From Roseobacter fucihabitans (GTDB lineage: Bacteria; Pseudomonadota; Alphaproteobacteria; Rhodobacterales; Rhodobacteraceae), in assembly GCF_014337925.2 (NCBI RefSeq), contig NZ_CP143423.1, positions 2,758,501 to 2,822,500 of the forward strand: a stretch of 64,000 nucleotides of DNA, in the 5' to 3' direction. Positions 14,956-63,162 of the stretch are shown in pieces. A program made the position numbers and the translations under genes. Position 1 is the stretch's first letter; each line of letters starts with the position of its first letter. The notes below the pieces were generated by a model, which saw only the letters and a program-made list of their open reading frames with translations, searched no databases and was not told where the DNA came from.

Positions 14956-14991
14956 CACTGCCCGGCAGTGCATTGAAAATGCACGAGAGGG
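14956..14991 (+). repeat. miniature hairpin element, copy 1 (36 nt)
   Basis: Copy 1 runs CACTGCCCGGCAG, then stem TGCATT-GAA-AATGCA, then CGAGAGGG. It lies between the codons ATC and GAA of IS3 orfB. Removing exactly 36 bases joins FI to EEHR, the expected protein. Confidence 0.88.
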
Positions 14992-15126
14992 GAAGAACAC
15001 AGGTGCAGCTTCCCAGCCAACCGGTTGTGCAATGTTGTGGGCGTCAGCACAAGCGGGCTACGCGCATTCCGCAACCGTCCTGCCAGCCGAAGACGGCGGT
15101 CTGACTTGGTCACGCTTGCGCACATC

Positions 15127-15162
15127 CATTGCCCGGCAGTGTATTGAAAATACATGAGAGGG
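15127..15162 (+). repeat. miniature hairpin element, copy 2 (36 nt)
   Basis: Copy 2 runs CATTGCCCGGCAG, stem TGTATT-GAA-AATACA, then TGAGAGGG. It lies between ATC and AAG of orfB; removal joins LAHI to KERSRLSPG. It keeps frame length but carries an in-frame TGA. Confidence 0.88.
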
Positions 15163-15320
15163 AAGGAGCGGTCCCGTCTCAGCCCGGGCAGCTATGGTCG
15201 ACCGCGCATGACTGAAGAGCTGAAGGAGATCGGTCTGAATGTTGGCCATCGTCGTGTTGGTCGTCTGATGCGTCAGAACGGAATAACCGTGGTCAGGACC
15301 CGTAAACACAAGGTCACAAC

Positions 15321-15361
15321 CATTGCCCGGCAGGCGATTGCACAGCAATCTGCTGAGAGGG
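15321..15361 (+). repeat. miniature hairpin element, copy 3 (41 nt)
   Basis: Copy 3 runs CATTGCCCGGCAG, GC, stem GATTGC-ACA-GCAATC, TGCT, GAGAGGG. The outer CGGCA/TGCTG can add to the stem around a three-base bulge. Removal joins VTT to DSDHKF; at 41 nt it shifts the frame. Confidence 0.88.
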
Positions 15362-15617
15362 GGACAGCGACCATAAGTTCAACATAGCGCCGAACCTGCT
15401 GGATCGGGACTTCACCGCAGATGCGCCAAATCAGAAGTGGGCTGGTGACATCAGCTACGTTTGGACCCGAGAGGGTTGGTTGTACCTGGCTGTCATCCTC
15501 GACCTGCATTCAAGGCGCGTCGTTGGTTGGGCCGTCAGTAATCGCATGAAGCGCGATCTGGCAATTAGGGCGCTGAAGATGGCGATTGCATTCCGGTTAC
15601 CGCCGAAAGACTGCATT

Positions 15618-15658
15618 TATTACCCGACAGGCGATTACAAGGTAATCTGCCGAGAGGG
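15618..15658 (+). repeat. miniature hairpin element, copy 4 (41 nt)
   Basis: Copy 4 runs TATTACCCGACAG, GC, stem GATTAC-AAG-GTAATC, TGCC, GAGAGGG. It interrupts orfB between DCI and HHTDRGSQ, directly beside the second catalytic Asp. The 41-base removal restores frame. Confidence 0.88.
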
Positions 15659-15772
15659 CACCACACGGATCGCGGCAGCCAATATTGTTCTCATGATTAT
15701 CAGAAGGTCCTGCGCCAGCATGGCTTCAAGGTATCGATGAGCGGCAAAGGAAATTGCTATGATAATGCCGCC

Positions 15773-15813
15773 CCCTCTCGGCAGATTGCTTTGCAATCGC
15801 CTGCCGGGCAATG
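15773..15813 (-). repeat. miniature hairpin element, copy 5 (41 nt), at a deletion breakpoint
   Basis: Copy 5 is inverted relative to the gene: CCCTCTC, GGCA, stem GATTGC-TTT-GCAATC, GC, CTGCCGGGCAATG. Its left side follows NCYDNAA of orfB, but its right side continues at the last codons of orfB (YAFERKVA), so about 45 codons are missing at this junction. Confidence 0.85.
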
Positions 15814-16027
15814 GTACGCTTTTGAACGGAAAGTGGCTTAAACGAGCACCTGGGGCGGCACAAAAGCGCGACAGGTCCAGTCCGGATAAAAGCGGGTCCC
15901 TATCCGCCCTCACAAGGAGCCGCGCTGCACCGCAGGAACGCGCGCCCATTCCACCGACATGCCCCTTTTTAACGCCAACAAAACGCGCAGGGCATGGCGG
16001 CATCCGCTGGTACAATGAAACCGCCTG

Positions 16028-16756
16028 TCAGTGGTTCAATATCTTAGACAGGAAGTCTTTGGCACGCGCACTCTCAGGGTGGTCGAAAAATTCAGTGGTC
16101 GGCCTGTCCTCGATAATGGCCCCTTCATCCATGAAAATGACCCGATCTGCGACCTTGCGCGCAAAGCCCATTTCATGGGTGACGACCATCATTGTCATGC
16201 CTTCCTGCGCCAATTCAACCATGACATCCAGCACCTCCTTGATCATCTCCGGATCAAGCGCCGAGGTCGGCTCGTCAAAGAGCATGGCAATCGGATCCAT
16301 CGCCAGCGAGCGCGCAATTGCAATACGCTGCTGTTGACCCCCCGACAACTGGCTGGGGAATTTCTTTGAATGATCTTCCATACCCACCCGCGCCAGCAGT
16401 TTTTCGGCGCGCGCAACAGCCTCCGCCCGGCTGCGTTTCAGGACTTTCTCCTGCGCCAGACACAGGTTTTCCAGCACCGTCATATGCGGGTAAAGTTCGA
16501 AATGCTGGAACACCATGCCAATGCGAGAGCGCAGCGCCGTCAGATTGGCCCCCTTGGCCGTCACCTCGTCGCCGTCCACGCTGATCTTGCCCTGCTGTAC
16601 CGGCTCCAACCCGTTGACGCATTTGATCAATGTCGATTTTCCCGATCCTGACGGACCACAGACCACGACGACCTCACCCTTGGTCACATTGGTCGTGCAA
16701 TCGGTCAGAACTCTGAAATCGCCATACCATTTGCTAATGTTATCAAGAGTGATCAT
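16028..16756 (-). CDS. gltL: glutamate/aspartate-type ABC transporter ATP-binding protein
   Basis: This 242-residue polar amino acid ABC ATPase (GlnQ/GltL group) has Walker [10 protein letters not shown] (about 34-42), signature [16 protein letters not shown] and Walker [15 protein letters not shown]. It energises uptake through the two permeases encoded just upstream, with which it shares an ATGA overlap. It is the last gene of the leftward operon. Substrate assignment rests on the binding protein encoded at the other end of the operon. Downstream, between 15880 and 16027, there is no gene. Confidence 0.88.
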
Positions 16757-17409
16757 GTGCTCATCCGGGACTTGAGGCTTCTCACGTACATTGACCCGGA
16801 GAAGCAGATTACGAAATAGACGACGGCGGCAAAGAGGTACATTTCAACCAATCGCCCTTCGGTCCGCGCGACGATGGAAGAGGCCGTCATGAAGTCGCGC
16901 AGCGACACGACAAAGACCAGCGATGTATCCTGAAACAGAATGATGCATTGCGTCACGAGGATCGGGATCATGTTGCGAAAGGCCTGAGGCAACACGACAT
17001 AACGCTGGATCTGCCAGTAGTTCAGCCCCGTGGATTGGCCCGCGTGGACCTGACCCCGTTTGACGCTTTGGATGCCAGCGCGCATGATTTCCGAGTAGTA
17101 GGCCGCCTCAAAGAGGACAAAGGCGATGAGTGCGGAATAAAAGCTGCCGATCGGACGCCCGATGGCCAGAGGCACCAGAAAAAAGAACCAGAAGATCACG
17201 AGGATCAAGGGAACCGAGCGGATCAGGTTCACATAGGTGGCGGCGACAAAAGCCAGCGGTTTGATGCCCGACAGTCGCGCGAGTGCCAGCAATGTGCCCA
17301 GAACGATCCCGCCGATGATCGACAGAAAGGTCAACCAGAGGCTGAGTTGCAGGCCCTGCCACAGGAAAGGCAAAGAGGTCCAGATCAGGTTGAAATCAAA
17401 ATCTGCCAT
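16753..17409 (-). CDS. gltK: Glu/Asp-type ABC transporter permease
   Basis: This 218-residue inner-membrane permease of the His/Glu/Gln type has about five membrane segments and the conserved loop [43 protein letters not shown] (EAA loop, residues about 100-142, contacting the ATPase). It is three bases from the preceding permease gene and overlaps the ATPase gene by four bases. Confidence 0.87.
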
Positions 17410-17412
17410 GAT

Positions 17413-18132
17413 TTAGCCCTCCTTTCCGACATAACCCGGAATGCGGGTGTATTTTTCCAGGACCTGCATGATGATCGTCGCGATCAGCGCAATGCATACG
17501 TATATCACGGTCGCGGCGGTGAAGGCTTCAAAGCCTTGAAAGGTGTATTCAGCAATCTGCTGGCTTTGCGCAGTCAATTCCAAAAGCCCGATGGTGAGAG
17601 CGAGAGAGGAATTCTTGAAAACCGTCAGGAATTCGGAGGTCAGCGGCGGCACGATCATCCGGAAGGAGATCGGCAATAGCACATAGCGATAGGTTTGGGA
17701 GACATTGAGACCATGCGCGGTGGCGGCGGCCGTCAAGCCGGGCGGCACGGTTTCGATCCCCGCACGTACCTGCTCGGCGATCCGCGAGGCCGTGTAGAGC
17801 CCGAGCGCCACGACGGCGGTGACAAATTCGGGGTTCGGCATGTCGCGCTTCATCCATCTGCCCCAATCCGCGGGCAGCAGTTCAGGCACGGCGAAATACC
17901 AGATGAACATCTGCACCAACAAAGGCACATTGCGGAATATTTCGACATAGGTGGCACAGATGCCCCGGATCACCCCGTTCGGCACCGTCTTGCCGACCCC
18001 GACAAGCGCGCCGATGACAATGGCAATGCACCAGGCGCTCAGCGCGACTGAGACGGTCCAGCCAAAACCACTGATGAGCCAGTTGAGGTATTGTTCCTCA
18101 AACAGGACCGACCAGTTCCAATTATAGTTCAT
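17413..18132 (-). CDS. gltJ: Glu/Asp-type ABC transporter permease
   Basis: This 239-residue permease partner is of the same family. It includes YTASRIAEQVRAGIETVPPGLTAAATAHGLNVSQTYRYVLLPIS, the EAA loop. Residues MNYNWNWSVLFEEQYLNWLISGFGWTV resemble the GltJ N-terminus. A terminator-like hairpin separates it from the binding-protein gene upstream, so expression is probably lower than that of the binding protein. Confidence 0.87.
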   Translation of the reverse strand: MNYNWNWSVLFEEQYLNWLISGFGWTVSVALSAWCIAIVIGALVGVGKTVPNGVIRGICATYVEIFRNVPLLVQMFIWYFAVPELLPADWGRWMKRDMPNPEFVTAVVALGLYTASRIAEQVRAGIETVPPGLTAAATAHGLNVSQTYRYVLLPISFRMIVPPLTSEFLTVFKNSSLALTIGLLELTAQSQQIAEYTFQGFEAFTAATVIYVCIALIATIIMQVLEKYTRIPGYVGKEG

Positions 18133-18151
18133 GCCTAATGCCCCCGCATAA

Positions 18152-18182
18152 GAAAAGACCGGTAGGGTTTATCCTACCGGTC
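18152..18182 (-). terminator. hairpin between binding-protein and permease genes
   Basis: GACCGGTAGG and CCTACCGGTC form a perfect ten-base stem (18157-18182). Read leftward it is followed by TTTTCT. It lies 11 bases after the binding-protein stop and before gltJ, where partial termination would yield excess binding protein over membrane components, an arrangement known in ABC operons. Confidence 0.8.
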
Positions 18183-18192
18183 CTGTTTTCGA

Positions 18193-19059
18193 CTACTCTG
18201 GCAATGCGCCAAGCTTGAAAGCTGCTTTGAGCAACGGATCCGCAGGCACACCCAGCGGATCGAACCACTTTGAGTAAATCGCATCGATCTCCCCGGAGCG
18301 GAACACGGCGGCAAGCGCCTTTTTCCCGACGAGTTCAAAGGCGCTGTCATCGCGACGCACCATCAGGGCATAGGGGTCAAAGGAGAGGAACTCGCCGACA
18401 ACCGCAAAATCATCCGGGTTCTTGGATTTCGAGATCAGACCATAGAGCAGGATGTGATCGGTCGCATAGGCATCCACGCGGTCGGTCTCAAGCGACAACA
18501 TCCCTTCGGCATGATCGCGCACCGGCAGGACTTTAACGTCCATTCCGGCGGCTTCAACAGCCGCCATCACGGCGCGCTCATTGGTCGTACCTTGGGCCAG
18601 GGCCACAGCCTTGCCATCCAGGTCGGCGACCGAATTAATACCGGAATCCTTGCGGGTCAAAATCTTGGTGCCGGTCACAAAAGTCACCGGCATATATTCA
18701 ACCTGCTGTTGGCGTGTGAGGTTATTGGTGGTGGAGCCGCATTCCAGATCAATGGTGCCATTGGCCATCAGCGCGATGCGCGTCTTGGGATTAACCGGCA
18801 CGTATTTGACCGTCAATTCCTGATCAAGCTCTGCGGCGACGGCCTCGACGATCTTCATGCACAGATCGATGGAATAGCCTACGGGCTGCTGATTTTCGTC
18901 AAGATACGCGAAGGGGACCGAGCTTTCACGGTGGCCGATCACGATTTCACCGCTCGCCGCAATCTTGTCCAATGTGCCGCCGTGGCCGTCAGCAAAGGCT
19001 GCCGGGGTCGAAAGACCCAGCGTGACCGCCGCTGTTAATAGCATGTTTTTGATAAACAT
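18193..19059 (-). CDS. gltI: glutamate/aspartate-type periplasmic binding protein
   Basis: This 288-residue protein has a signal peptide (MFIKNMLLTAAVTLGLSTPAAFA). It shares with E. coli GltI the ligand-site motifs GHRESSVPFAY (about 41-51), ECGSTTNN (about 105-112) and AQGTTNE. That points to acidic amino acids as ligand. The neighbouring sulfo-lyase/desulfhydrase and racemase genes make related acids such as L-cysteate possible. It is the first gene of the leftward operon. Confidence 0.88.
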   Translation of the reverse strand: MFIKNMLLTAAVTLGLSTPAAFADGHGGTLDKIAASGEIVIGHRESSVPFAYLDENQQPVGYSIDLCMKIVEAVAAELDQELTVKYVPVNPKTRIALMANGTIDLECGSTTNNLTRQQQVEYMPVTFVTGTKILTRKDSGINSVADLDGKAVALAQGTTNERAVMAAVEAAGMDVKVLPVRDHAEGMLSLETDRVDAYATDHILLYGLISKSKNPDDFAVVGEFLSFDPYALMVRRDDSAFELVGKKALAAVFRSGEIDAIYSKWFDPLGVPADPLLKAAFKLGALPE

Positions 19060-19389
19060 TTGGATACTCCCTGCTTATTTTGGTTATCGATGCTTTCAGA
19101 TTTCAGTATTTTACCTGATCAGTTACCATCCCCTAAGTTCGGCTGATGCGCCAATGCGAAATCCGAAAATTGCATAAATCAGACGCTAACCCTTCGTTAA
19201 GGTCAGGTCTAATGCAAATTAGCGCTTACAAATTGCACAGATCGCAATTTTTTAATGCAAACCAGCCGAGCGTCGCTGTCTTGCTACAAGCGCCCTCTCG
19301 CCACACCAATACTTTTTGGCATCACGAATAGTGGCACCGCACGACACCCCACCGGGTGTCGTGGCCTTCTGGAGGCGACAGGATTGATC
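19060..19389. promoter_or_regulatory. AT-rich control region upstream of gltI
   Basis: No gene lies in these 330 bases. Several TTGCA/TGCAA words cluster at 19069-19260 in sequence (ATTGCA at 19169 and 19232, TGCAAA at 19213 and near 19256). The same words recur in the divergent lysR/20459-gene promoter. The region near 19280-19389 is more GC-rich and holds the hairpin listed next. Confidence 0.4.
19340..19363 (-). terminator. strong hairpin downstream of the LysR gene
   Basis: CACGACACCC and GGGTGTCGTG form a perfect ten-base stem with loop CACC. It lies 26 bases after the end of the leftward LysR gene. There is no T-run, so it is only a probable terminator. Confidence 0.55.
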
Positions 19390-20340
19390 TTATCCCACGT
19401 CAGCGGGCCCTTGCGACGGATCAGATGCGGGCGCGCTGCTCTTCAAGTGCTCGGGCAGTGCAATTTGCCCCAGGATGTCATGCCAGGCGCATACTGATTC
19501 CGCACCCCCATTTTCCGACAATCGGAACGCTTTGATATCGAGGCGCTGAACGGGCAACGCCGCTTCCAGCGACATCAACGTCCCTTGCGCCAGAGCGGCA
19601 CCAACCATGGAACGCGGCAACCACGCCACGCCGATCCCGCCAAGCGCAAATTCATAAGCGGCAAGCGTGAGGGCTGTTTCGGCCTTGGTGACAACCTGCG
19701 TCTGCGCATTCAGACGCGGCGCAATATGGCGGTCAAACACTTGGCCCAGAAACACACCGGACGGATAGCTGATCCCAGGGATCTGTGTTGCGCCAATGCA
19801 CTCGCGCAAGGCGGGCGCACAGACCGGAATGAGCGTATCACCCCCCAAGGTCAAAGGCTCAAAGGCACGCTCCAAGAACGGCACCGGCTCACCGGGCACA
19901 CTATACATAACCGCAAAATCGACCTCGCCAGACAACAGCAGCATCAGGCACTCTTCCTGATTGCACGACCGCACCTTGACCGACGCATCGCTTTCGGCTG
20001 TGAACGCGCGCACAATCCACGGCGCCACAGTCGTGGTGATCGCATGCTGGCAGGCAAAACTGAGGGTGCCGCCGGTCTGGCCGGTTGCCACTTTCAGCTT
20101 ATGCCTCACTTTTCGCAGGCGCATAGCGAGGTCGCGCAACTCCGGCGCAAGCGCCTCAACCCCCGCCAACAAGGTGACCGGTTTGCGCCGCCGGTCAAAC
20201 AGCTCCACGCCGATGCTGTCCTCAATCAACCGCACACGCCGCGTAAAGGCTGATTGCGTCAGCAGACGCTTTTCCGCAGCCCGCGCAAGGGATCCGTTGT
20301 CGAGCACCGCCAAGATGTCATCAATCCACTCCAATCGCAT
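19390..20340 (-). CDS. LysR-family transcriptional regulator
   Basis: This protein of about 316 residues has an N-terminal winged helix (WIDDILAVLDNGSLARAAEKRLLTQSAFTRRVRLIEDSIGVELFDR) and a periplasmic-binding-like effector domain. I chose the ATG at 20340 because GGAG precedes it by six bases; an in-frame GTG lies at 20355. It is divergent from the cysteate/D-cysteine lyase gene with a 118-base gap, the classical arrangement for a LysR regulator and its target. A role in controlling that gene and perhaps the gltI operon is inferred. Confidence 0.88.
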   Translation of the reverse strand: MRLEWIDDILAVLDNGSLARAAEKRLLTQSAFTRRVRLIEDSIGVELFDRRRKPVTLLAGVEALAPELRDLAMRLRKVRHKLKVATGQTGGTLSFACQHAITTTVAPWIVRAFTAESDASVKVRSCNQEECLMLLLSGEVDFAVMYSVPGEPVPFLERAFEPLTLGGDTLIPVCAPALRECIGATQIPGISYPSGVFLGQVFDRHIAPRLNAQTQVVTKAETALTLAAYEFALGGIGVAWLPRSMVGAALAQGTLMSLEAALPVQRLDIKAFRLSENGGAESVCAWHDILGQIALPEHLKSSAPASDPSQGPADVG

Positions 20341-20458
20341 TCGCCGCTCCACCACCCCATAACAACATGCGCATATTGCAATTTAATGGGGTCACTTTGC
20401 ATTATCATTTGGCCGCCTTAAAGGTTAAAAAACGATAACAGCAAATTAAGGATCTGAA
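20341..20458. promoter_or_regulatory. divergent LysR / lyase promoter region
   Basis: It contains the palindrome ATTGCAAT (20375-20382) and TTGCAT (20397-20402), words also clustered upstream of gltI. Such sites fit a LysR binding region, but no footprint-quality motif can be defined from one sequence. Confidence 0.4.
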
Positions 20459-21472
20459 ATGCATCTTGCCCGCTTTCCCCGCCGTTTTCTCGCGCACCTG
20501 CCGACACCATTGGAACGTCTTGACCGTCTGACCAAGGAATTGGGCGGACCGGAGATATGGATCAAACGCGACGATTGCACCGGCATGTCCACCGGCGGGA
20601 ACAAGACGCGCAAACTGGAATTTCTGATGGCGGAGGCCGAGTTGCAAGGCGCCGAGATGGTCATCACCCAAGGGGCCACCCAATCCAACCACGCCCGTCA
20701 AACCGCTGCTTTTGCGGCGAAAATGGGCATGCAATGTCACATCGTTCTGGAAGACCGCACCGCCTCCAATAACGCCAATTATAACAACAACGGTAACGTG
20801 CTGCTGGACCACCTGCACGGCGCGACGACCGAAAAACGCCCCAGCGGGCCTGATTTCAACGTGCTGATCGAGGAAATGGCCGCGCAAATGCGGGCAGATG
20901 GCAAGAAGGTTTATGCCATTCCGGGCGGCGGTTCGAACCCCACCGGGGCCTTGGGGTATGTCAATTGTGCTTTTGAGATGCTGGCGCAGGTTAACAGCAG
21001 CGGCACCAAGATTGATCACATCGTCACCGCCACAGGCAGCGCCGGAACGCAAGCCGGGCTGATTGTCGGTCTGAAAGCGATGAACGCGCAAATCCCGCTT
21101 TTGGGCATCGGTGTGCGCGCGCCAAAGGCCAAGCAGGAAGAGAACGTCTATAACCTCGCCTGCAAAACGGCGGAAAAACTGGGCTGCCCCGGCGTCGTCG
21201 CGCGCGAGGATGTGGTGGCCAATACCGATTATGTGGGCGCAGGTTACGGCATTCCAACAGAAAGCGGGCTTGAGGCGATCAAGATGTTTGCCGAGCTTGA
21301 GGCGATCCTGCTTGATCCGGTCTATTCCGCCAAAGGGGCCGCCGGTTTCATCGATCTGATCCGCAAGGGTCACTTCAAAAAAGGCGAAAGGGTTGTCTTC
21401 CTTCACACTGGCGGGTCGGTTGCCCTGTTTGGTTATGACGCCTCCTTTGATTTCTCGGATCGCTGGTCCTGA
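20459..21472 (+). CDS. PLP-dependent D-cysteine desulfhydrase / L-cysteate sulfo-lyase family
   Basis: This 337-residue fold-type II PLP enzyme has the cofactor lysine motif [13 protein letters not shown] (about 41-54), [16 protein letters not shown], and a phosphate-binding [12 protein letters not shown] near 190. The family includes D-cysteine desulfhydrase (DcyD: pyruvate, H2S, ammonia) and L-cysteate sulfo-lyase (CuyA: pyruvate, sulfite, ammonia), the latter known in roseobacters. The two cannot be separated safely by eye. A neighbouring acidic amino acid importer and Asp/Glu-type racemase make cysteate or a related acid plausible. The start follows AAGGATCTGAA. Confidence 0.85.
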
Positions 21473-21484
21473 TCGGCGCTCAAC

Positions 21485-22216
21485 GTGGCAAACACATCCC
21501 GCAAGTTTCGCAAAATCGGCATTCTGGGCGGGATGGGTGTCGAGGCCACTCTTGAGTTGATGAAAAGGGTGCATGGGGAAACCGTCGGCGAGGATGATCA
21601 GGATCATATTCCGATGTTTGTGGATATGAACCCGCAGGTTCCGTCCCGGATTGCCCATCTGATCGAAAAGGCCGGTCCCGATCCGGGTCCGGTGCTTGCC
21701 GAAATGGCGCTCGGATTGGAACGGGCCGGTGCTGAGGCTTTGGCAATGCCGTGCAACACGGCTCACCTTTATGCCCCGCAAATTGAGCAGCAGGTGAGCA
21801 TTGATCTCTTGAACATGCCAAAACTTGCCTGCGCGCAAGTGGCGGCGGGGCTGAAACCCGGTGACACCGTCGGTATTCTGGCCTCCCCGGCGACCAACAG
21901 CAGCGGTCTGCTTGGGGGTTTTCTGGCTGAGTTCGGGATAACGCCAGCTTATCCCGAAAATGAGACCGAAATTCTGGCATCGATACGCAGGATAAAGCAA
22001 GCAGGCGCGAGCGTCGCCGACATCGCTCTTTTGGAGAGTGAGGCCAAAAAACTCGTCCAAAGGGGGGCGAAAAAAATGATCATCGGATGTTCTGAGTTTT
22101 CGCTGATCAGTGCTCAGGTCCGCTCACCCATACCCGTTCTGGATACGTTGGATGTTCTGGTGCAGGCGATCATTGCATTCTCCGGCGCGCGCGCCAAGGT
22201 TGGAACCCCGATTTAA
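21485..22216 (+). CDS. aspartate/glutamate racemase family protein
   Basis: This 243-residue protein with a GTG start has the two catalytic cysteines of the Asp/Glu racemase family: Cys90 in MPCNTAH and Cys202 in IIGCSEFSLI, plus the N-terminal IGILGGMGVEAT. It would racemise an acidic amino acid without cofactor. It starts 12 bases after the preceding PLP enzyme and is probably cotranscribed, which suggests it supplies or removes one enantiomer for that enzyme. Confidence 0.87.
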   Translation: MANTSRKFRKIGILGGMGVEATLELMKRVHGETVGEDDQDHIPMFVDMNPQVPSRIAHLIEKAGPDPGPVLAEMALGLERAGAEALAMPCNTAHLYAPQIEQQVSIDLLNMPKLACAQVAAGLKPGDTVGILASPATNSSGLLGGFLAEFGITPAYPENETEILASIRRIKQAGASVADIALLESEAKKLVQRGAKKMIIGCSEFSLISAQVRSPIPVLDTLDVLVQAIIAFSGARAKVGTPI

Positions 22217-22419
22217 AAGAACAATACGCAATCCAATCCGCCCGCGGCCCTGCGCTTTGCATAAAAGATCCGCGATGCCGTCACCTTAATTGACGTTGGT
22301 TGCGCGACATTGCCCTTCCAAAGCGTTGGCGCGCCGAGCGGCAACTTATACTGTCGGGCAAACCCCGCGTCCTGCCTGGCTGCCATTTGTCCGGGGTCTT
22401 GCACATTTTGAGCGGTCAT
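22213..22419 (-). CDS. small protein of unknown function
   Basis: This 68-residue frame starts at an ATG preceded by GAAGGA at seven bases. It is convergent with the racemase gene and overlaps its stop by four bases. The sequence has no recognised domain, signal or membrane segment; it contains TSIKVTASRIFYAKRR. The good ribosome binding site is the main support. It may instead be non-coding. Confidence 0.4.
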   Translation of the reverse strand: MTAQNVQDPGQMAARQDAGFARQYKLPLGAPTLWKGNVAQPTSIKVTASRIFYAKRRAAGGLDCVLFF

Positions 22420-22574
22420 TGTTTTGTCCTTCTCATTCAACGGATTCAATTTCGATTATTTTTTGAGCATAGAGCTTATTTTTTGACCGTCCGCCACTCA
22501 AACGCACTCCTGGGTGCGGCTGCGACACCTCTGGTTATGGACCCTCCTAAACCATGATGTTTTGTCCAACATGA

Positions 22575-22934
<360 letters not shown>

Positions 22935-22977
22935 CCCCCCCCTATAAAATCATTCCAACCAAAAGGGATATACGAGA

Positions 22978-24453: not shown

Positions 24454-24646
24454 CTATGACCATCAACGGTCGGCACCGTTAAAGCGTTTGCCGGAATACC
24501 TGAAATATGATCTACCCTTTAGCCCGTTGAAATTTCTAATTTCCGGTAGGGTAAAATGATTCAGGTTTTGCCTATGACCTGTTGACGTTCGGGATTCCCA
24601 AATCATCTGACTTCTGCTTCAAGGTTGCAAACATAGGGGAGCAGCC

Positions 24647-25431
24647 TTGACGCGAAGGGTCCTGAGCGATGCCCAGTGGGCGATCATCGACCCTTACTGC
24701 CTCGGAAAATCCAGCGATCCGGGGCAGACCGGGCGTGCTCCCCGGCTGTTTTTAGAGGCCGTCCTTTGGATCGTCCGTACCGGGGCGCAATGGCGAGAAC
24801 TGCCCGAATTCGGCAAGTGGAATAGCGTGTTCAGGCGATTTCGCAGATGGGTCAAGGTGGATACTTCCTATCATATTTTCAAGGTATTAGCCTCATACGC
24901 CGACCTCGGATACGCCATGATCCTCTCTCATCGAAACTGCGTTTCGACTGCCTGGCGAGGGACGGCACCATCGTTAAGGTTCATCGTTCGGCTCAGGGCG
25001 CAAAAGGGGGATTCTTTGCCAGGCCATTGGGCGCTCTCGCGGGGGCATAAACACGAAGATATTGGCCGTAACGGATACACTCGCCAACCTCGTTGATTTC
25101 TGCCTGATGCCCGGACAAGCCCATGACCTGCGCGAAACCGACACTGATCCGCAATCAGACTGGCGGACATCTTCTCGTGGACAGGGGCTTTGACGCGGAT
25201 TGGCTGCGAAATGACCTGCTGGATCGTGACATCATCCCGGTCATATCCCCGAAATCTAACCGGAAATTCCCGGCAGAGTTCGACAAGAAGACCTGCAAAT
25301 GGCGGCATCTGATCGAAAACTACTTCGGCAAAATGAAGGAAAACAGAGGCATAGCCATGCGCTCGTGCAAAACAGACCAGAGCTTCAAAACCCTCATCTC
25401 GATTGCGGCGACAATCATCCAAATGCGGTGA
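24647..25431 (+). pseudogene. IS5-family transposase, frameshifted
   Basis: The N-terminal part (TRRVLSDAQWAIIDPYCLG... VLWIVRTGAQWRELP) and the C-terminal part (TGGHLLVDRGFDADWLRN ... KWRHLIENYFGKMKENRGIAMRS) are good matches to IS5 transposases, but in different frames. Between them is a 38-base hairpin insert after YAMI, then small indels near 25018 (GAKGG / QAIGRSRGG) and near 25137 (LRET / LIRNQTGG). Unlike the IS3 and IS1182 copies, this one would stay broken if the insert were removed. Confidence 0.85.
24923..24960 (-). repeat. miniature hairpin element, copy 6 (38 nt, diverged)
   Basis: In element orientation: CCTCGCCAGGCAG, stem TCGAAAC-GCA-GTTTCGA, TGAGAGAG. It lies between ATC and GAC of the IS5 transposase; removal joins YAMI to DGTIVKVHRSAQGAKGG. 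Both ends differ from the consensus by a few bases, yet the seven-base stem is perfect with a sequence unlike any other copy. Confidence 0.75.
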
Positions 25432-48296: not shown

Positions 48297-48905
48297 ATGT
48301 TTGCAGGCGCACAAGTTTCCCTTTACCCGATGGCCGACGGTTTCGTTGACATCATCCTCTCTTCGCTCAGCGCACTAGACCCCTGGCGGGATAGATTGCG
48401 GATCGAAACAGACGATATCTCGACCCTGATCGTCGGCCCGCCAGAAGTGTTATTTCCCGCGCTGCACGATCTGTATGTTGCGGCGGCAGCCTCTGGCGCG
48501 CATCTCGTGTTACGCGCCACCTTGTCGCGGGGCTGCCCCGGTGAACCCGATGATCCGATCTGCCAAACGGGCGCGTTGGCCAATCCGTCCGAGCCGTTGG
48601 TGTCACGCCAGCAGAGTGCCCTGACAGCCCTTGCCGCAACGCCTGAGACGGGCCAAGCGACAGATGCGCAGTTTTCGCTTTATGTCATGGGGGCGGGTGA
48701 TCACATGGCCGAAATCATGGGCTGCATTGATTTTCTCAAGCAAAGCGGCACGTTCGATCGGTCCAAGAATTTTTGCACGCGCCTGACGGGTGACGCGGGT
48801 CCGGTGTTTGCCACGCTCCAGCAGGCGTTTTGCCAGTTTGGCCCCCCTGTTGGCCATGTCACGATTGATTTGACGGTCTCCGCCAACAGCCCCTCCAAGC
48901 GCTGA
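48297..48905 (+). CDS. ykoF: YkoF-family thiamine/HMP-binding protein
   Basis: This 202-residue protein consists of two YkoF-like ferredoxin-fold halves (AQVSLYPMADGFVDIILSSL near 5 and AQFSLYVMGAGDHMAEIMGCI near 120). In Bacillus the family binds thiamine or its pyrimidine moiety. It is first in the TPP-riboswitch operon, five bases before the permease gene. It probably serves as a cytoplasmic ligand-binding helper of the importer. Confidence 0.85.
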   Translation: MFAGAQVSLYPMADGFVDIILSSLSALDPWRDRLRIETDDISTLIVGPPEVLFPALHDLYVAAAASGAHLVLRATLSRGCPGEPDDPICQTGALANPSEPLVSRQQSALTALAATPETGQATDAQFSLYVMGAGDHMAEIMGCIDFLKQSGTFDRSKNFCTRLTGDAGPVFATLQQAFCQFGPPVGHVTIDLTVSANSPSKR

Positions 48906-55246: not shown

Positions 55247-55339
55247 GATGGCAGCCCCCAAATAACGATGCAAGGTTCACACGAGGCCGTCGTTTCATGC
55301 AAATTATCATTTTATATCAAATATGATAAATATATTTAA

Positions 55340-56218: not shown

Positions 56219-56434
56219 TACCCATTCATATAATGGATCACAAGAACATCAAAACCATAAAAATTACTGCACCAACATTCGGTACCATCTATTTTCAGCC
56301 TTTGCCATTATTCGAGGCATGGGCTGACAAACGCACGACGTTCACGCCCGCGTCAAAAGGCGTCGGTCAGACATTCCACCGGACGACAGAAGCCAACATG
56401 TCATGCCGGGGGAACAATGGGGAAATGTGGAACA

Positions 56435-56828
56435 ATGCCTGATGCGCAAGCCGTGGCGAAGATGGCCGCAGATTACACAGCCGCCGGGAATTCCAAGTCG
56501 GCAAAGGCGGTAGCCTCTTTTTATGCGGAAGACGGCGAAATTATCATCAACAACGGCGCGCCCTCGCGGGGACGCGCGCGCGTGCAGGATATGGCCGCAG
56601 GGTTTTTATGCGCATGCACCGGATTTGTCGCTGAGCTGCGATGATGTGCGTTGCGCCGGAGGCCATGTGATCTTTGTTTGGACATTCACCGGGCATGACG
56701 CCGCCAGCGGAAACCCTCTGGAAATTCGCGGCTGGGAAGAGTGGGAAATTGATGACGACCTCAAGGTAAAGGCGTCGCGCGGATGGTTTGATGCCGAAGA
56801 TTATGCGCGGCAAGCCGAAGGACGCTAA
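56435..56828 (+). pseudogene. SnoaL-like / NTF2-fold protein with one frameshift
   Basis: The first part (MPDAQAVAKMAADYTAAGNS... ASFYAEDGEIIINNGAPSRG, ending VQDMAAGF) and the second part (YAHAPDLSLSCDDVRCAGGH... GNPLEIRGWEEWEIDDDLKV, ending QAEGR) together make one SnoaL-like domain of about 130 residues. They are in different frames. The switch falls at the run TTTTT near 56595, where one extra base is enough to explain it. Mutation, polymerase slippage and sequencing error remain possible. Confidence 0.7.
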
Positions 56829-57384
56829 GCAATTTCTGGACGTCCCAGACCCCTTTTGCGGCACAAGGGTCGCCATGTTCTGGTATCGGAAACCCTTTGT
56901 ACCCCCCACAGATCATCAAAGTCACGACAAAGCCATCCGTCGAAATGGGCGCCCGATAGAGCCCCTGTCCGCGATAAAGCCCCACCACTTGAGCGCGCCG
57001 AGCCGGTGAAGAAGGCTACGACAGGGGGCCTCCTTCCGCCCTATGTGAAAGGGTATTTGATATCCGGCGGTGGCGCGAAATCAAAAGGCCTATGTTCTTG
57101 CAGCGCGCCGTATTGCCTGCGGATACTGAAGGTGCCCAATAGAAATGCCGCGCGGTGCAGAATGTCGACCACGATTGGTCAACGCCGCCCGATGCCTGTC
57201 AAAAATCCGAAACATGAAGACGGGTCGGGATGATCAAAGTTCGGCATGGCCCAGATGAGGCGTGCAGAGATCTGCGGCCTGTTGATTTGTCCCGAGCGGT
57301 CAGGTTGTGCGGGCCATTTCCTTGCCCCATTCCGAATAAGCGCGCATACTTCAACCTACAGCGTTCACAAATCGATGGTGCTGC
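56829..57384. other. gene-poor region
   Basis: I see no supported gene, hairpin or repeat in these 556 bases. Short open frames exist on both strands but without ribosome binding sites. It marks the start of the accessory right end of the window. Confidence 0.35.
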
Positions 57385-58875
57385 GTGACAATACTGCATG
57401 GTCCAAGTCCAGATACGTCCAGAAACGCGCCCGCGATGCGCAAGCCGCGCGATGAGCAACGAGGCGATGTGAATGCGTTGGAAGCTCCGGCTGTGAGCGG
57501 CGCACAGCGCGCACTTCAAAACGCCGCGGATGCCGGAGCACAGTCAAGGAGTACGCAAGCTTTGCAGGCTATGGCCGATGCCAGCACACAAGCCGACCAG
57601 CCTCCCGCGCAAAGGCTGCAAAATAATCTCCCGCTGCGCGCAGAGCCATATGCCTCTTTGCAACCCGCGAACAAACCTCCGGCGCGTGCTGTGCTCCAAC
57701 GCGAATATGACGGCGTTAAGAAATTGCGCATCGGCGTGATCTATGCCGGGAACACGGTGCCAATCTTTGCAAACCAGATCCCCGCACAGACATATGTATG
57801 GGTTTTGTCCAACGATATGGTGGGGGCGCGTGAGTTAGAAGGCGTCACAAGCGGTCAAAATAAATCCTCCCCCAACGAAATCATTACCGCGAATAAAACC
57901 AATGTCGCTGCGTCGAAAAAGCAGGATGAAAACCGCTCCGGCGGAGAAGTGGTAGGCCGGGTTTTTCAATCTGGTCCTTTCCATATCCCGCGCAACGGGG
58001 ATGTCGGGGGTGATCGAAACAAGCTGGATTACTCGTTCTGGCGTTTTGCGGCACTCAAATCCTATGGCATCTGGTACGCGTCCTCGGAGGCTGCCGCCAA
58101 AGGCTGGCCGGACATCACATCCAACAAAACGCTCGTCGAAACCATCGATAGCGACGTTCCCGGCATGACCGGAACCACGAATGCGGGGAAGGTCACGGAT
58201 GACAACCCCAAAGAGATGAAAACGGATTGGCTGGCCGTGGCCGGGCTTTATCGCTGGGACTGGCAGGATGTTAAAGATCACCCCACACTCCACCGACTTT
58301 TCGGCGATAAACACGCCACGCGCGACACCGCGTTGCGCGCATTTTCAGACCAATATACCGAAGCAGAGGGTGACGCGCGCGCGGCCGCATCCAGCGATAT
58401 TTTCAAGATTTATTTCCCGGAACCGGCCACGCGGCTCAGTGGTCCGGCGATAACGCTGCTGACGACTTCCGGGCTGGGTGATATGGCGGTCTCTGCGGGG
58501 ACCCAGATCGGGCACAAGCGCGAAAGTATCGGTATGATCGCAGCACTTGTGCGTCTGGATGTGACGAAAAATACCGGTAGCCAGTCTGCGTCCAAAGGCA
58601 AGCTGTCCTTCAACAGGTCTTTTGAGACGACCACCGGGCTGGGTAAACGCGACGGTGCCTATGCATCACTTTTTGCGCAATGGTACGACAAAGCCAAGAC
58701 CCCAACCGAAAAGCTCAACAAGATTGATTTCGCGACCTTGAGCCGTGCGAAAGAGTTCGATCAGTCTTATCTGAATGACGCGCTGGCCGGGAATGTGTTA
58801 AAATGGCACAATGAGACCTATGATGCCATGTCCGATGATGACAGCACCAAAAAGCGGTTTTTCAACCCAAAATAG
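57385..58875 (+). CDS. unrecognised protein with a DUF4157-associated style N-terminus
   Basis: The 496-residue frame has a GTG at 57385 and an ATG at 57436; neither has a strong ribosome binding site. Residues about 35-110 are Ala/Gln/Pro-rich with STQALQAMADASTQADQPPAQRLQ, like the linkers that accompany DUF4157 domains, and end in RAVLQRE. The rest (about 115-496) looks like a compact domain beginning LRIGVIYAGNTVPIFANQIP, with FAALKSYGIWYASSEAAAKGW and a C-terminal WHNETYDAMSDDDS. I do not recognise that domain. A role as an injected or secreted effector is only a guess from the N-terminus. Confidence 0.7.
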   Translation: MTILHGPSPDTSRNAPAMRKPRDEQRGDVNALEAPAVSGAQRALQNAADAGAQSRSTQALQAMADASTQADQPPAQRLQNNLPLRAEPYASLQPANKPPARAVLQREYDGVKKLRIGVIYAGNTVPIFANQIPAQTYVWVLSNDMVGARELEGVTSGQNKSSPNEIITANKTNVAASKKQDENRSGGEVVGRVFQSGPFHIPRNGDVGGDRNKLDYSFWRFAALKSYGIWYASSEAAAKGWPDITSNKTLVETIDSDVPGMTGTTNAGKVTDDNPKEMKTDWLAVAGLYRWDWQDVKDHPTLHRLFGDKHATRDTALRAFSDQYTEAEGDARAAASSDIFKIYFPEPATRLSGPAITLLTTSGLGDMAVSAGTQIGHKRESIGMIAALVRLDVTKNTGSQSASKGKLSFNRSFETTTGLGKRDGAYASLFAQWYDKAKTPTEKLNKIDFATLSRAKEFDQSYLNDALAGNVLKWHNETYDAMSDDDSTKKRFFNPK

Positions 58876-59442
58876 CGATGAAAAGCGGAGAAACCATGGG
58901 TCGTACTGCAGCTAACGTCCGTGCCCACCCGAGATCCCAATGTCATAACCGGGGAAAAAGGCGCTTTGAGGCAGATGCCTTTGCCCGGTTTGGTATCCCG
59001 CGATTTGCAACATTTCATTCCATCAAGTTTTGAGACAAGATTTGACCCGCTTTAGGATCAAAAATTGGTCATCTTTTTTCCGCTCCTGCGTGCCCGAAGC
59101 GCTTCGGAATTTGCCGCCCTATTCCGCAGCGCTACGATGTTATCGATACATTCGCAGTCAACTGTGCTTTCCGATGGAGTTTTGAGATTCTACGGTGCCG
59201 CGATCTTTTTCAATGAGATATTCCTCACCAAAGAGCTGAGACGCAAAACCTCCGCCATGCTCAGAACACCGCCAAGAAATCACCGCAAGACCCGGTTGTG
59301 GCCTGCGCAGATCAGAAACGCTCTTTTGTATCGAAGGCCTCGGTCGATCCTATGCCTGCGCGCTTCAAGTGATCGCCATGCCTGCCCTCGTTGCCATCAA
59401 ACCTGCCTGTGGCTTCAAAGACAAATCGCAACCGCTTCATTT
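58876..59442. other. gene-poor region before the IS66 element
   Basis: No gene is supported in these 567 bases. A short open frame ending at about 59459 (AMPALVAIKPACGFKDKSQP and a few more residues) could be a remnant. The right end of this stretch probably contains one terminus of the IS66 element, but I could not match it to a partner. Confidence 0.35.
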
Positions 59443-59730
59443 TTACTGTAGTGACTGAGCTTTAATTCGGCTGACAAGGTCAGCGTCATCGACGAAGTCG
59501 TCAAGGAATTCATGCCAGGTTTTGGTGGTGATACGAGCGGCTCGGATCATGTCCGTCAGTTCTTTCTCCCCGTCCTCTTTCAGTGCGGAGATTGTTTCGT
59601 GGGGTCCGAGGTAAACGCTCACGATGTTGGCATAGGTCAGGTTGTCGTCGTTGGAGATGATCGCTTCGGGAAGCGCGACATCTTCGTTCAGCATTTTGGC
59701 GACGTAGTCGATGGTGCAGACATGGATCAC
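59443..59730 (-). CDS. IS66-associated small accessory protein
   Basis: This 95-residue frame starts at a GTG, eight bases after the tnpC stop. The product (IHVCTIDYVAKMLNED..., LTYANIVSVYLGPHETISAL, WHEFLDDFVDDADLVSRIKAQ) has the look of the small protein often found downstream of tnpC in IS66 elements of Rhodobacterales. The function is unknown. Intact, unlike the transposase genes next to it. Confidence 0.65.
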   Translation of the reverse strand: MIHVCTIDYVAKMLNEDVALPEAIISNDDNLTYANIVSVYLGPHETISALKEDGEKELTDMIRAARITTKTWHEFLDDFVDDADLVSRIKAQSLQ

Positions 59731-59738
59731 CGCAGCCC

Positions 59739-60091
59739 TCAAGCGGCTTCGGGATGGGCAGCAGCCAGCGGCTCCCAATTCCACGTGAGCAATTCATCGA
59801 GCCGGTTGATCTTGTGATCGTGGATGCGGTTCAGGATGTCAGCGAGACAGGCCAACGGATCGCGACCCCTCTCGGCAGATTTGCCTTGCAAATCGCCTGT
59901 CGGGCAATGGTTGAGCTTGGCGGTTTCGATGATGGTCATCGCGCGCGCGAGGGTTTCCGCGCCGGTGTCGGCCCCTGCAAATAGCCAATTCTTCCGCCCT
60001 ATTCCAATCGGACGCAGAGCCCGCTCAGCGGGATTGTTGTCGATTGCGACGCGGCCATCGGACAGGAACGATTTGAAGGTCCGCATTGGCT
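59739..60091 (-). pseudogene. IS66 transposase TnpC, C-terminal part
   Basis: It carries MRTFKSFLSDGRVAIDNNPAERALRP..., FAGADTGAETLARAMTIIETAKLN, then copy 7, then the terminal part DPLACLADILNRIHDHKINRLDELLTWNW, typical of the IS66 DDE transposase end. It continues from the part at 61705-63189 across the IS1182 element. Rejoining the two parts at the GGCT target repeat leaves a one-base frame offset, so further decay may be present. Confidence 0.85.
59868..59909 (-). repeat. miniature hairpin element, copy 7 (42 nt)
   Basis: In element orientation: CATTGCCCGACAG, GC, stem GATTTGC-AAG-GCAAATC, TGCC, GAGAGG. It sits in tnpC after TAKLN; removal restores AKLN-GRDPLACLAD. The exact right edge is uncertain by one G. 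Confidence 0.85.
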
Positions 60092-60730
60092 GATTCTGTG
60101 GAAAAACAACGTGTTGCGAGCGCAGGAAGTGGTGATCTAAATGGAGCGCGAGCGCCTTTCTTATCAGGCTTTTTGCATTTGCTGCGGTGCAGGAAAGATC
60201 TTGGCGAGTTTGCGGAGGTTTTGGGCGGTGGCGGCGAGCAGGAATTCGTCATTTGCGCCGCATGGGCCACGTAATCGGGGACGTCCCAGCCCGAGGATGC
60301 GTTTGAGATGCGCGAAGAGCATCTCAACTTTCTTGCGCAGCCGCATTGAGATTGCGTATTGCTTGGTCTTGGCAATGTCGCGGGCGACCTGACGGGCGTC
60401 TTCATGTTCTTCGCGGGTAATTTTTCGCGCATCAGCATTCGGGCAGCATTGCATTTCTGACAGACAGGCCTGACACGTCTGTTTAAGGGCCTTATACTTG
60501 GCGACGCCTTTGCCGGTTGGCCCACGATTTGGGTCAGAATAGTTGCGCCGGAATTGCTTGAGCGGCTCGCCTTCCGGGCAGATGTATTGGTTATTCTCCG
60601 CATCCCATTCAAAGTCCGCGCAAGACCATGTGCCATCCGTGCGGCTCGCTTTATCCATAACCGGAATGTGCGGTTCGATCTTGCGATCAACCAACCACCC
60701 GAGCATCGGGCCGGAACCGTAAGCTGTGTC

Positions 60731-60770
60731 CATTGCCCGGCAGTTGATTGCAAAGCAATCAATGAGAGGG
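60731..60770 (+). repeat. miniature hairpin element, copy 8 (40 nt)
   Basis: CATTGCCCGGCAG, stem TTGATTGC-AAA-GCAATCAA, TGAGAGGG; inverted relative to the IS1182 transposase. Removal joins EWIIA to DTAYGSGP, directly at a conserved catalytic Asp. Confidence 0.88.
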
Positions 60771-61403
60771 GGCGATAATCCATTCGGGATGCAGATCGAA
60801 CGTGTCTTTGACCCGATCCAACATTGAGCGCACAGACCCGACTTCTGCTTGCCGGATTGATCGTCTGGCCTCCACATCGACGATCACGGCATGATCCGTG
60901 TCGATCAGGTAATTGGTGGAATAACTGAAGAACGCAGGGCCTTTACGGGCTGCCGTCCATTGGCTTGCAGGATCAGAATGGGACGTGAACTTGGGTTCAA
61001 CCTCAGATGCTGCGCCAAAAGCTGCGTTATCCAAGACATCAAGATACTCCTTCACGGCACGCGGCGCATCGTTTGGATCGATGGCATTATGGTCCCAATC
61101 TTCCTTCGGCGTCGCGTTTTGTTTGTTCGCATCTGCCTCGATCAAACTGGCGTCTGCCGCAAGGCGCTGGCCACTCACCAAGCCATCCGCGATGCACCGA
61201 GCTACGGTCTTCTCGAACAGGTGTCGCAACAATGCACTCTCCCGGAAACGCCCATGCCGGTTCTTGGAGAACGTCGAGTGGTTCGGCACCGGATCAGATA
61301 GATCGAGGCGGCAAAACCAACGATACGCCAGTTTCAAATGCACCTCTTCACAAAGACGGCGCTCCGAGCGGATGCCAGAACAATAGCCCACGAGCAGCAT
61401 GCG

Positions 61404-61440
61404 CCCTCTCATGCATGTAAACATGCACTGCCGGGTAATA
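61404..61440 (-). repeat. miniature hairpin element, copy 9 (37 nt)
   Basis: In element orientation: TATTACCCGGCAG, stem TGCATGT-TT-ACATGCA, TGAGAGGG. It lies between ATC and CGC of the IS1182 transposase; removal joins PELLI to RMLLVGYCSG. Confidence 0.88.
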
Positions 61441-62247
61441 GATCAGCAGTTCTGGGTCGATGGACGGGCGGCCAGTGTGGCTATAAAAGTCCGCTAGGTA
61501 TTGGCGGATGTCGCTTAGATCAACGAACCTATCAATTGACCGCAGCAGGTGATCTTGGGGCACATGATCGTCAATCGAGAACTCGTAAAACAGCGCGCCT
61601 TGTGCTTCTTGCTTTGGTCCCAGCATCGAAATCACCCCCGTTGCTAAGGAAAATTGAATCAGCGAATAGCCACCCGATCAAGCAAGAGTTTTTCAACAGA
61701 ATCGGCTCAGACCGTATCTGAAGGCTCTGGTCAGATCACTCTTGCCCGGAATGCACAGAAGCTGCTGCTCGGACCAGGCAAAGAAGGCCACAATCTTTGG
61801 CTGGCTCAGCTTTTGACGCGCGGCCATGCGGACGTCGGCTGGCTGGCCGTTGGTGTCGCGCTCGATGTCGTGGAGTTTGCCGATCCTGTCGAGGGCCTCG
61901 TGGGCGATATCGGACTTGGTCGAGGTCCGAAAATCGTGGAAATCGCGCCGCAGGCAGGGCCAGCAGGCCGCCTCCCGCAAACGCGGCACACCACCCGGTT
62001 CAGGCGCGTAAAGCTTGGCATAGCCTTTGTAGCCGTCGGCTTGGAGGATGCTGCGGGCATCTGCCAGATGGGTCAGGACATGCTCTTCCTTCCAGTCTGG
62101 CGCAAACCGATAGACAGCGCCGGGCGGTGCGCCCCCCGCCCAAGGACGTTGGTCCTGCACACAGGCCCGGATCCGGCCTTGCTTGACACCTTTGCCAGGT
62201 CCTTTGTCGCGCCTTGAACGATCCGGCACCCGGATCGGCGTGTCATC

Positions 62248-62288
62248 CACTGGCTGGCAGGGCATTGCGCAGCAATCTGCCGAGAGGG
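62248..62288 (+). repeat. miniature hairpin element, copy 10 (41 nt)
   Basis: CACTGGCTGGCAG, GGC, stem ATTGC-GCA-GCAAT, CTGCC, GAGAGGG; inverted relative to tnpC. Removal joins GSDLLHA to DDTPIRV, next to the catalytic Asp pair. Confidence 0.87.
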
Positions 62289-62366
62289 GGCGTGCAGCAG
62301 ATCGCTGCCCATGATGTGCGCCTCGATCCGTTCAATAATGGGCGACAGTGTTTTCATGGCACGGCC

Positions 62367-62439
62367 ACCCTGGGCTGCGCCCGTTCACACCTCAGACTGT
62401 CCCCCGGGACAGCCCGTAGCTTCGCGAACCGGTGCTCAC
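62367..62439. repeat. 73-base structured insert of a different kind in tnpC
   Basis: After tnpC codons TLVGW and before GRAMKTLS there are 73 extra bases (about 70 net) with a stop codon. They contain the palindrome CTGTCCCCCGGGACAG (62397-62412 area) and a GC-rich second arm. They do not share the CATTGCCCGGCAG / GAGAGGG ends of the other inserts. Confidence 0.6.
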
Positions 62440-63117
62440 CCAGCCGACCAGCGTGGTTTCGGGAATGTCGCCCCCCATACGCGCAAAGATCTCATGCTGG
62501 CGATATAACGGAAGGTGATCGTCGAACTTCGACACCCGCTGAGCGACGGGCGATGCCTGCATCGCCAAGAGGGGCACATGCGCCAGCAGGTCTGGCCCTG
62601 CCATGCTGCCCGGGATCGGACGGCCTGGCGCGGGCTCCTGCACCATCTTTTCGCAACGACGGCAGGATTTCCTGATCCGGACGATCTGCACAACCTTCAT
62701 CCGTGCGGCGATCATGTCGAGAAGTTCGCTGACATCCTCGCCCACGACGCGCAGATCGCCACCACAGTCGGGGCAGCACGTGCCCGGATCAAGCTCACGG
62801 CGTTCTCGCAGGGTCACCTTCGACACACGCGGGCAGCGGCGCAAAACGGGCGCGCAGGGCTCATCAGCGGCCGGTGCGTCCTGACCTTCGTCGATCATCG
62901 CGTCATCGTCTTCGGCCACGGCGACCAGCAGGTCTTCGAGCGCCGGTTCCAGCTGCTTGATCTTCTCTGAGGATTTGCCAAAAGCCAGTTTCTGGAGTTT
63001 GGCGATCCGCAGCCGAAGGGCCTGAACCGGTTGATCGTGGACCCGCAAGGTCGCTGTGATCCTGGCGTTCTCTGCCTGCAATTCCGCGATCATCGCCTTC
63101 AAAACAGCGGGATCATC

Positions 63118-63162
63118 CGTTTGCCCGGCAGGGCATTGCGCGAAGCCAATATCCCGAGAGGG
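63118..63162 (+). repeat. miniature hairpin element, copy 11 (about 45 nt)
   Basis: CGTTTGCCCGGCAG, core GGGCATTG...CAATATCCC (imperfect stem), GAGAGGG; inverted relative to tnpC. Removal joins PAENLS to DDPAVLKAM. It is the most irregular copy, and its edges are uncertain by two bases. Confidence 0.75.

Follow-up and report, generated by a model that had tools for sequence, protein, structure and literature searches.

The window analysed here is a 64-kb stretch of DNA of Roseobacter fucihabitans (C1:2758501-2822500, in a genome of 4.85 Mb), in which transposase genes of several insertion sequence (IS) families are interrupted by a small hairpin element of 36-45 nucleotides (nt) with the layout CAYTG-(CCC)-GGCA-(stem)-3/4-nt loop-(stem)-GAGA-(GGG). 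A preliminary description of this window had listed eleven copies, and all eleven positions, read directly, hold the hairpin; ten were also recovered by a covariance model, while the copy first placed at 24923 is decayed. The hairpins and their hosts are the following, with covariance model scores in bits:

14956..14991, plus strand: hairpin of 36 nt in IS3 orfB, between ATC and GAAGAA; 34.5 bits; exact insert without duplication relative to loci L137 and L146
15127..15162, plus strand: hairpin of 36 nt in IS3 orfB; 32.1 bits; exact insert
15321..15361, plus strand: hairpin of 41 nt in IS3 orfB; 65.3 bits; exact insert
15618..15658, plus strand: hairpin of 41 nt in IS3 orfB, next to the HHTD motif; T1/A5 variant with C following it; 57.7 bits; exact insert
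15773..15813, minus strand: hairpin of 41 nt, antisense, bordering a deletion that has taken out the A-V-E stretch (catalytic Glu) of the IS3 transposase; 69.1 bits; placed by alignment
14601..15879, plus strand: host IS3-family element with five hairpins and approximate ends, a block of ~1,280 nt common to several copies with differing flanks
24926..24965, minus strand: decayed hairpin in an IS5-type gene, seen by eye and alignment; the model does not recover it
24611..25428, plus strand: IS5-family transposase remnant, host of the preceding hairpin; matches an IS5 reference in blastp (E=1e-21 and 4e-16)
59867..59909, minus strand: hairpin of 43 nt in the 3' part of IS66 tnpC; 54.1 bits; host IS66
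60731..60770, plus strand: hairpin of 40 nt, antisense in an IS1182 transposase gene; 47.6 bits; exact insert relative to Yoonia locus L141
61404..61440, minus strand: hairpin of 37 nt in the IS1182 transposase gene, in sense orientation; T1/A5 variant with C following it; 22.9 bits; exact insert relative to L141 and L145
60090..61705, minus strand: host IS1182-family element nested in IS66, with approximate ends; with the hairpins set aside, its open reading frame (ORF) was otherwise seen unbroken
62248..62288, plus strand: hairpin of 41 nt, antisense in IS66 tnpC; 57.0 bits
63119..63162, plus strand: hairpin of 44 nt in IS66 tnpC, antisense and close to the start of the gene; 39.0 bits

The four host families named in the preliminary description (IS3, IS5, IS1182 and IS66) were identified by NCBIfam, DNA alignment or blastp. 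NCBIfam calls IS1182 at 60759-61424 and IS66 at 61693-63685, the segment around 59867 is also IS66, and the IS3 element at 14.6-15.9 kb was assigned by DNA alignment to annotated IS3 elements. The IS1182 copy is nested within the IS66 tnpC gene and hairpins are present in both.

The covariance model was seeded with eleven 41-nt copies from the R. fucihabitans genome, using the structure given above. With filters off, the scan of the whole window recovered ten of the eleven copies at 22.9-69.1 bits; the next-best match scored 14.3 bits (E=0.28, the E-values of the model being rough owing to a shortened calibration), and no additional copies were detected in the 64 kb by this unfiltered scan. 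The remaining copy, refined from 24923 to 24926-24965 on the minus strand, was missed even at E=5; we take it as a decayed hairpin, which by eye resembles copy O70 of the same genome. A stricter pattern, TGCCCGGCAG-N8-25-GAGAGGG, matched six times in the window versus a mean of 0 over 100 shuffles. The stem is supported by compensatory changes: among 68 distinct sequences, 97.4% of the cells are paired and 113 double changes were counted versus 33.7 in shuffles, a signal abolished by sliding the stem partners (the set consisted of 86 matches with E up to 1e-7 from 64 of 80 named loci, and their alignment was itself a fit to the model). The same holds for the eleven seeds (96.2% paired, 16 double changes versus 6.3).

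Hairpin-free IS relatives, 72-75% identical and located on Rhodobacterales plasmids, were aligned to the IS3 and IS1182 hosts. In these alignments the two IS1182 hairpins and all IS3 hairpins but the last appear as exactly 36-41 extra nt, the target being neither duplicated nor lost. Seven sites could thus be compared with an element-free relative, and six of them lack a target-site duplication; at the seventh, that of the fifth IS3 hairpin (15773), an adjoining deletion has removed A-V-E from the DDE motif. The objection, raised in the preliminary description, that undisturbed relatives of these IS elements might carry the same sequences does not hold for IS3 and IS1182, since their element-free relatives have an empty site.

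The element is concentrated in IS genes far beyond the window. Six-frame ORFs around the sites, with the hairpins set aside, were compared with a library of IS transposases, and sites were classed as lying within 30 nt of transposase homology or near it (within 700 nt). The library includes pieces of some host loci, so that a site can match its own host; these pieces are from annotated plasmids or bear NCBIfam names, apart from two additional frames whose hosts had been named in that way. In the R. fucihabitans genome 68 of 77 sites were within 30 nt of transposase homology, seven near and two without any; in other genomes the corresponding numbers were 113, 20 and three of 136 sites, and in named genomes 85, 22 and 19 of 126. 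The second of these samples comprised 80 regions (60 from other genera, 20 from the genus), mostly represented by the best model match per genome, and therefore favours 41-nt elements. Of the 126 sites in named genomes 18 recur in the second sample and two in the R. fucihabitans set, some of them from the same genome. Altogether, with ~20 sites repeated, 266 of 339 sites were within 30 nt and 49 within 700 nt, compared with 63 of 600 random window positions, 39/300, 50/300 and 19/300 positions on three plasmid stretches, and 20 of 513 positions (39 more near) taken >1.5 kb away in the same named loci. The copies sampled lie mostly in mobile-element genes, and the refuting case named in the preliminary description, copies common in ordinary intergenic DNA, was not encountered.

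The hosts belong to ~14 IS families overall: IS3, IS5 (several subgroups), IS6, IS21 (istA and istB), IS66, IS110, IS200-type, IS256, IS481 (weak), IS630, IS1182, IS1595, ISAs1 and ISNCY were named in one sample or another. Among the remainder, NCBIfam named or confirmed IS5, IS30 (E=0.047), IS110, IS256, IS481 (weak), IS630, ISAs1, ISNCY and tyrosine recombinases; sites N058, N079 and N084 were grouped with the IS481-like N046 by eye only. Site O25 adjoins a LysR-type gene and lies in a recombinase-like frame.

In the R. fucihabitans genome, 224 model matches (E up to 1, a few spurious) were obtained in the fetched regions and merged into 77 site groups whenever either flank was alike, so that some distinct sites may be joined; 41 of the 77 are multi-copy. 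One group, O75, consists of a partial match of 21 nt in a long gene of unrelated nature, and was counted as spurious. Scanning with the model, as had been suggested for the genome and related Rhodobacterales, revealed that the element is widespread in the family: matches were found in 16 of 19 genomes of the genus (R. fucihabitans included) and in 145 of 394 family genomes, with nearly one genome per genus. In the order sample 119 of 292 genomes matched, all rows listed being of the same family, and in the class sample eight of 289, three of them of the same family and five outside it. Copy numbers in these scans are lower bounds (16 candidates were scored per genome for the family, 22 for the order and class), and lone weak matches may be due to chance. 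An exact pattern scan of species genomes returned at least 120 stretches; among the 80 listed, all but six bear Rhodobacterales-type names, the others being a Labrenzia, a Rhizobium, a Rhodospirillales metagenome-assembled genome (MAG) and three alphaproteobacterial MAGs. Copies are present in Dinoroseobacter, Phaeobacter and Leisingera. The element was also detected in 83 plasmid records (Rhodobacterales among the matches listed), and no record matched in a scan of a phage collection. On one plasmid, from Pseudosulfitobacter, the model scores weakly (25.4 bits) at L147:104-140, immediately beyond an IS66 element annotated there, and at L187:2176-2246 there are two overlapping opposed copies, possibly a dimer.

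Insertion usually destroys the reading frame of the host. A transposase match spans 145 of the insertions: the frame is shifted in 104 of these, a stop codon is introduced in 31, and in ten the gene is left open and in frame. Orientation relative to the gene is nearly even (69 sense and 76 antisense; 27 and 37 in named genomes). The 75 hosts in which at least 60% of the gene could be followed hold 176 hairpins and 120 other breaks; in 17 of them no other ORF break was found, five of these being copies of one IS1182.

The insertions are also recurrent. Only two of the 136 sites in other genomes match a site of R. fucihabitans, and in diverged hosts the same codon was hit repeatedly: residues 35 (six times), 132.7 (three) and 243.7 (four) of IS3, 274 (three) and 299 (four) of IS1182, and residue 171 of IstB (three, the 'LVIL^DELG' position). 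The elements at shared codons differ in length and sequence, and at six of 11 shared positions their identity (0.67-0.73) is that of random pairs (0.70), as for IS3 35, IS1182 299 and the IstB 'LVIL^DELG' position, with 0.72, 0.67 and 0.72, respectively. The occurrence of unlike elements at one codon of diverged transposases argues for recurrent insertion at preferred sites. At the other five positions the elements are 0.77, 0.80, 0.93, 0.95 and 0.95 alike, and on account of this high identity some of them (IS21A 425, IS21B 100) may be inherited. In the IS21 elements of two congeners, L111 and L209 share the insertion at IstA 425 and L121 and L209 that at IstB 100, a pattern that may not fit one tree and hints at recombination or re-insertion.

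Once inserted, hairpins are carried along by their hosts. The IS3 element with five hairpins occurs as an identical block of ~1,280 nt with differing flanks in the window (14601-15879) and at C1:683061, 2104814 and 4019467, whereas other IS3 relatives in the genome match it in part (at best 86% over ~410 nt, and 67% in 14 copies). Since this IS3 has spread in spite of lacking the A-V-E stretch, the simplest reading is that it moved in trans. Regarding the alternatives of targeting and hitchhiking in the preliminary description, the association with IS genes stands and hitchhiking does occur, as 41 of the 77 groups are multi-copy and the IS3 moved together with its hairpins, but hitchhiking alone fails to explain hundreds of distinct sites.

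Inspection of the flanks revealed a loose target, YCATC at positions -5 to -1 and G at +1, with 4.1 bits in total (five of the 77 R. fucihabitans groups, 38, 71, 73, 75 and 76, were omitted from the logos). In the 72 remaining sites the left flank is CATC in 19 and CGTC in six, this tag belonging to the target and not to the insert. Motif sites with a score above the median have a density of 25.7 per kb in IS DNA of the window and of 22.4 per kb elsewhere; being about as frequent outside IS, the motif cannot create the preference for them. Considering the 297 of 334 sites with full flanks and standard ends, bases 1 and 5 of the element form the combination C-G in 278 and T-A in 13, and the two bases track the +1 base of the target: A5 is followed by C in 12 of 14 sites and G5 in nine of 283 (Fisher p = 3e-14, a value inflated by related sequences). 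The fact that nearly the same core carries both end types (O57, O69) indicates that this association is not mere ancestry, and it suggests that the 5' end helps to choose the target.

Based on the available evidence, we consider it probable that these hairpins represent one family of ultra-short mobile elements that parasitise insertion sequences, possibly damping them. In the mechanism that we propose, an enzyme encoded elsewhere would recognise the folded hairpin or a cruciform, make a single cut in the target and join the hairpin in without target duplication. Insertion occurs just 3' of a loose YCATC, usually before G, where the 5' pentanucleotide would help to read the first right-hand target base, and it takes place almost solely in IS genes, usually destroying their frame; the damaged IS can still be mobilised by other copies, carrying the hairpin along, so that the element would live as a parasite of transposons. 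A stronger version, to which we would give somewhat less than an even chance, is a dedicated transposon-targeting system in which a minimal hairpin bearing a guide, shared by the Rhodobacterales, would be actively sent into the transposase genes of IS families that are unrelated to one another. On that reading it would count either as a counterpart, at the level of DNA, of transposon silencing or as a hyperparasite of insertion sequences.

Several observations weigh against the proposed parasitism. The 4.1-bit motif leaves the preference for IS unexplained, and the reading is weakest in the step from being found in IS genes to being sent to them. Mobility is deduced from comparison of sequences, and the elements of R. 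fucihabitans are no closer to one another than to those of other genomes, which disfavours local bursts. Many hosts carry other lesions, so some insertions may be late. As for an enzyme, Y1_Tnp (E up to 1e-10) was found in 29 of the 394 family genomes and in 18 of the 145 carriers, leaving 127 carriers with no match at that threshold; Piwi/Argonaute was found in none of the 19 genomes of the genus, and a reverse transcriptase is missing in some carriers such as G004, which has 25 element matches. A longer autonomous form was not seen either: on the main contig, all but one of the 57 exact left ends fall within a model match. Regarding location, 49 sites are merely near transposase homology, eight entries have no host assignment (X018 and N018, from one record, N021 with similar flanks, N020, N047, N056, N067 and N076) and two sites lie beside chromosomal genes (L242:4399 and L258:72); the clearest exception is a RelE-family gene hit at nearly the same position in two genomes (L153:1523 and L241:1346). 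The hairpins at L242:4399 and L258:72 are similar to each other, GC-rich, beside a short-chain dehydrogenase/reductase gene and an ornithine cyclodeaminase gene, and are perhaps terminators mimicking the element. As partners, Y1/RAYT (REP-associated tyrosine transposase) proteins are disfavoured by their rarity in carriers, Argonaute by its absence from the 19 genomes and reverse transcriptase as it does not occur in every carrier.

The distribution over IS genes could also arise without any preference at insertion. If the element inserted everywhere and persisted only in useless DNA such as dead transposases, ordinary genes would not be expected to show it, as they do not tolerate insertion, and in 58 of the 75 hosts the ORF is indeed broken at one or more other points, which in some cases is the frame change normal for IS3. 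This explanation appears unlikely, given that non-coding DNA should tolerate insertion as well: the window has 7,481 non-ORF non-IS bases and 6,140 IS bases (by a rough ORF count) with 0 versus 11 copies (0.45^11 = 1.6e-4), just two of the 339 sites were identified beside chromosomal genes, the eight unassigned entries aside, and some host genes are otherwise unbroken (IS1182, and the IS21 at L111). Slightly less likely still is that insertion is random in an unsampled source from which only the copies inside IS reach other species. It would account for identical elements across genera (one 36-nt core occurs at nine sites in eight genomes of the second sample), for the IS that carried its hairpins along and for the lack of closer similarity among the R. 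fucihabitans elements; but a few travelling IS lineages would share sites, and these differ between genomes (two of 136 shared with R. fucihabitans; 18 and two of 126), and in the sample of searched genomes whose contexts were read, none turned up as a source holding copies in ordinary DNA.

Two further explanations concern the enzyme and the fate of the insert. Small hairpins, absence of target duplication, a left-side motif and bases covarying with the target make up the logic of IS200/IS605 elements, which the present element resembles, having a mainly left-side motif. That it is a repetitive extragenic palindrome (REP)-like or IS200/IS605-derived repeat moved on single-stranded DNA by a Y1 (RAYT/TnpA) transposase is nevertheless very improbable. 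The absence of a Y1 match from most carriers means that this is not a REP/RAYT system, and the extragenic habit is absent. Those Y1 genes of R. fucihabitans that could be read are IS200-like, and the left ends of the IS200 copies examined are unrelated to the hairpin; one IS200 gene itself carries a hairpin insertion. No significant replication-strand bias was detected in three sets (skew association p = 0.13, 0.56 and 0.07), and single-copy sites of R. fucihabitans are distributed 14:16 by replication strand, one of the 16 being the spurious O75. Even less credible is that the hairpins are mini-introns removed from DNA or RNA, so that the IS stays functional. Some hairpin-bearing IS are indeed multi-copy, with an ORF otherwise unbroken once the hairpins are set aside; against this, sense and antisense insertions are about equal, and the IS3 with five hairpins spread despite the lost A-V-E stretch, so that movement in trans suffices.

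To our knowledge, no other small bacterial element has its targets restricted so closely to the transposase genes of IS families unrelated to each other. Active targeting would mean that an enzyme can tell mobile-element genes from all others, which would represent a new kind of genome defence or a new tier of parasitism, and possibly a tool for inactivating IS elements. Even if the copies seen are only those that survived in dead DNA, the element would be a family-wide marker of IS inactivation and of dead IS moving in trans. How bacteria tame insertion sequences becomes a question testable in laboratory strains of Dinoroseobacter, Phaeobacter or Leisingera. No paper was recognised in a literature search as describing these elements; the IS content of Octadecabacter is treated in PMC3646047. 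An Rfam scan of the window gave no family above its gathering score except one thiamine pyrophosphate (TPP) riboswitch (RF00059, 48191-48303, 60.3 bits), which adjoins a downstream ORF starting at 48297.

The preliminary description knew of no named family with these properties, and each of those compared here indeed lacks one of its defining features in the element. Rickettsia palindromic elements (RPEs) stay in frame within ordinary genes. The present hairpin, in contrast, lies in mobile-element genes and breaks the frame in 135 of 145 cases, the gene being open and in frame in 10. Both are short palindromes inserted inside genes (PMC3733652). REPs, of which that article distinguishes GTAG and CGTC super-families, are likewise short palindromes with an unpaired end, many copies and inferred mobility, and next to the present element, on its 5' side and within the target, there is a tag-like CRTC; CGTC REPs are described there as the commonest in Alphaproteobacteria, lacking a known transposase, and as having 8-9 bp stems starting with AT pairs, a CCA tail and mostly a head-to-head dimer arrangement (PMC3733652). 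REPs are, however, mostly intergenic in this source, whereas the present hairpin sits inside transposase genes, has a CCC/GGG foot and a 4x4 internal loop, and was met once as an overlapping pair (L187). Of the REP/RAYT hallmarks, then, neither a mainly extragenic location nor a partner Y1 transposase common to the carriers was found. Miniature inverted-repeat transposable elements (MITEs) are also small non-autonomous inverted-repeat mobile DNA, but the present element is far shorter, has no target-site duplication and no parent IS was found for it. The closest likeness is to IS200/IS605 and the derived palindrome-associated transposable element (PATE) and MITE forms, with which it shares the hairpin, the absence of target duplication, a short 5' motif and a guide-like covariation; in contrast to them, most carriers have no Y1 match, and neither shared ends nor a significant strand bias was found. 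Altogether, its behaviour is that of a minimal transposable hairpin with habits like those of IS200/IS605, and it belongs to none of the families tested. Specialists may see in it an unusual relation of the REPs; we regard it as a new kind because of the class of its targets.

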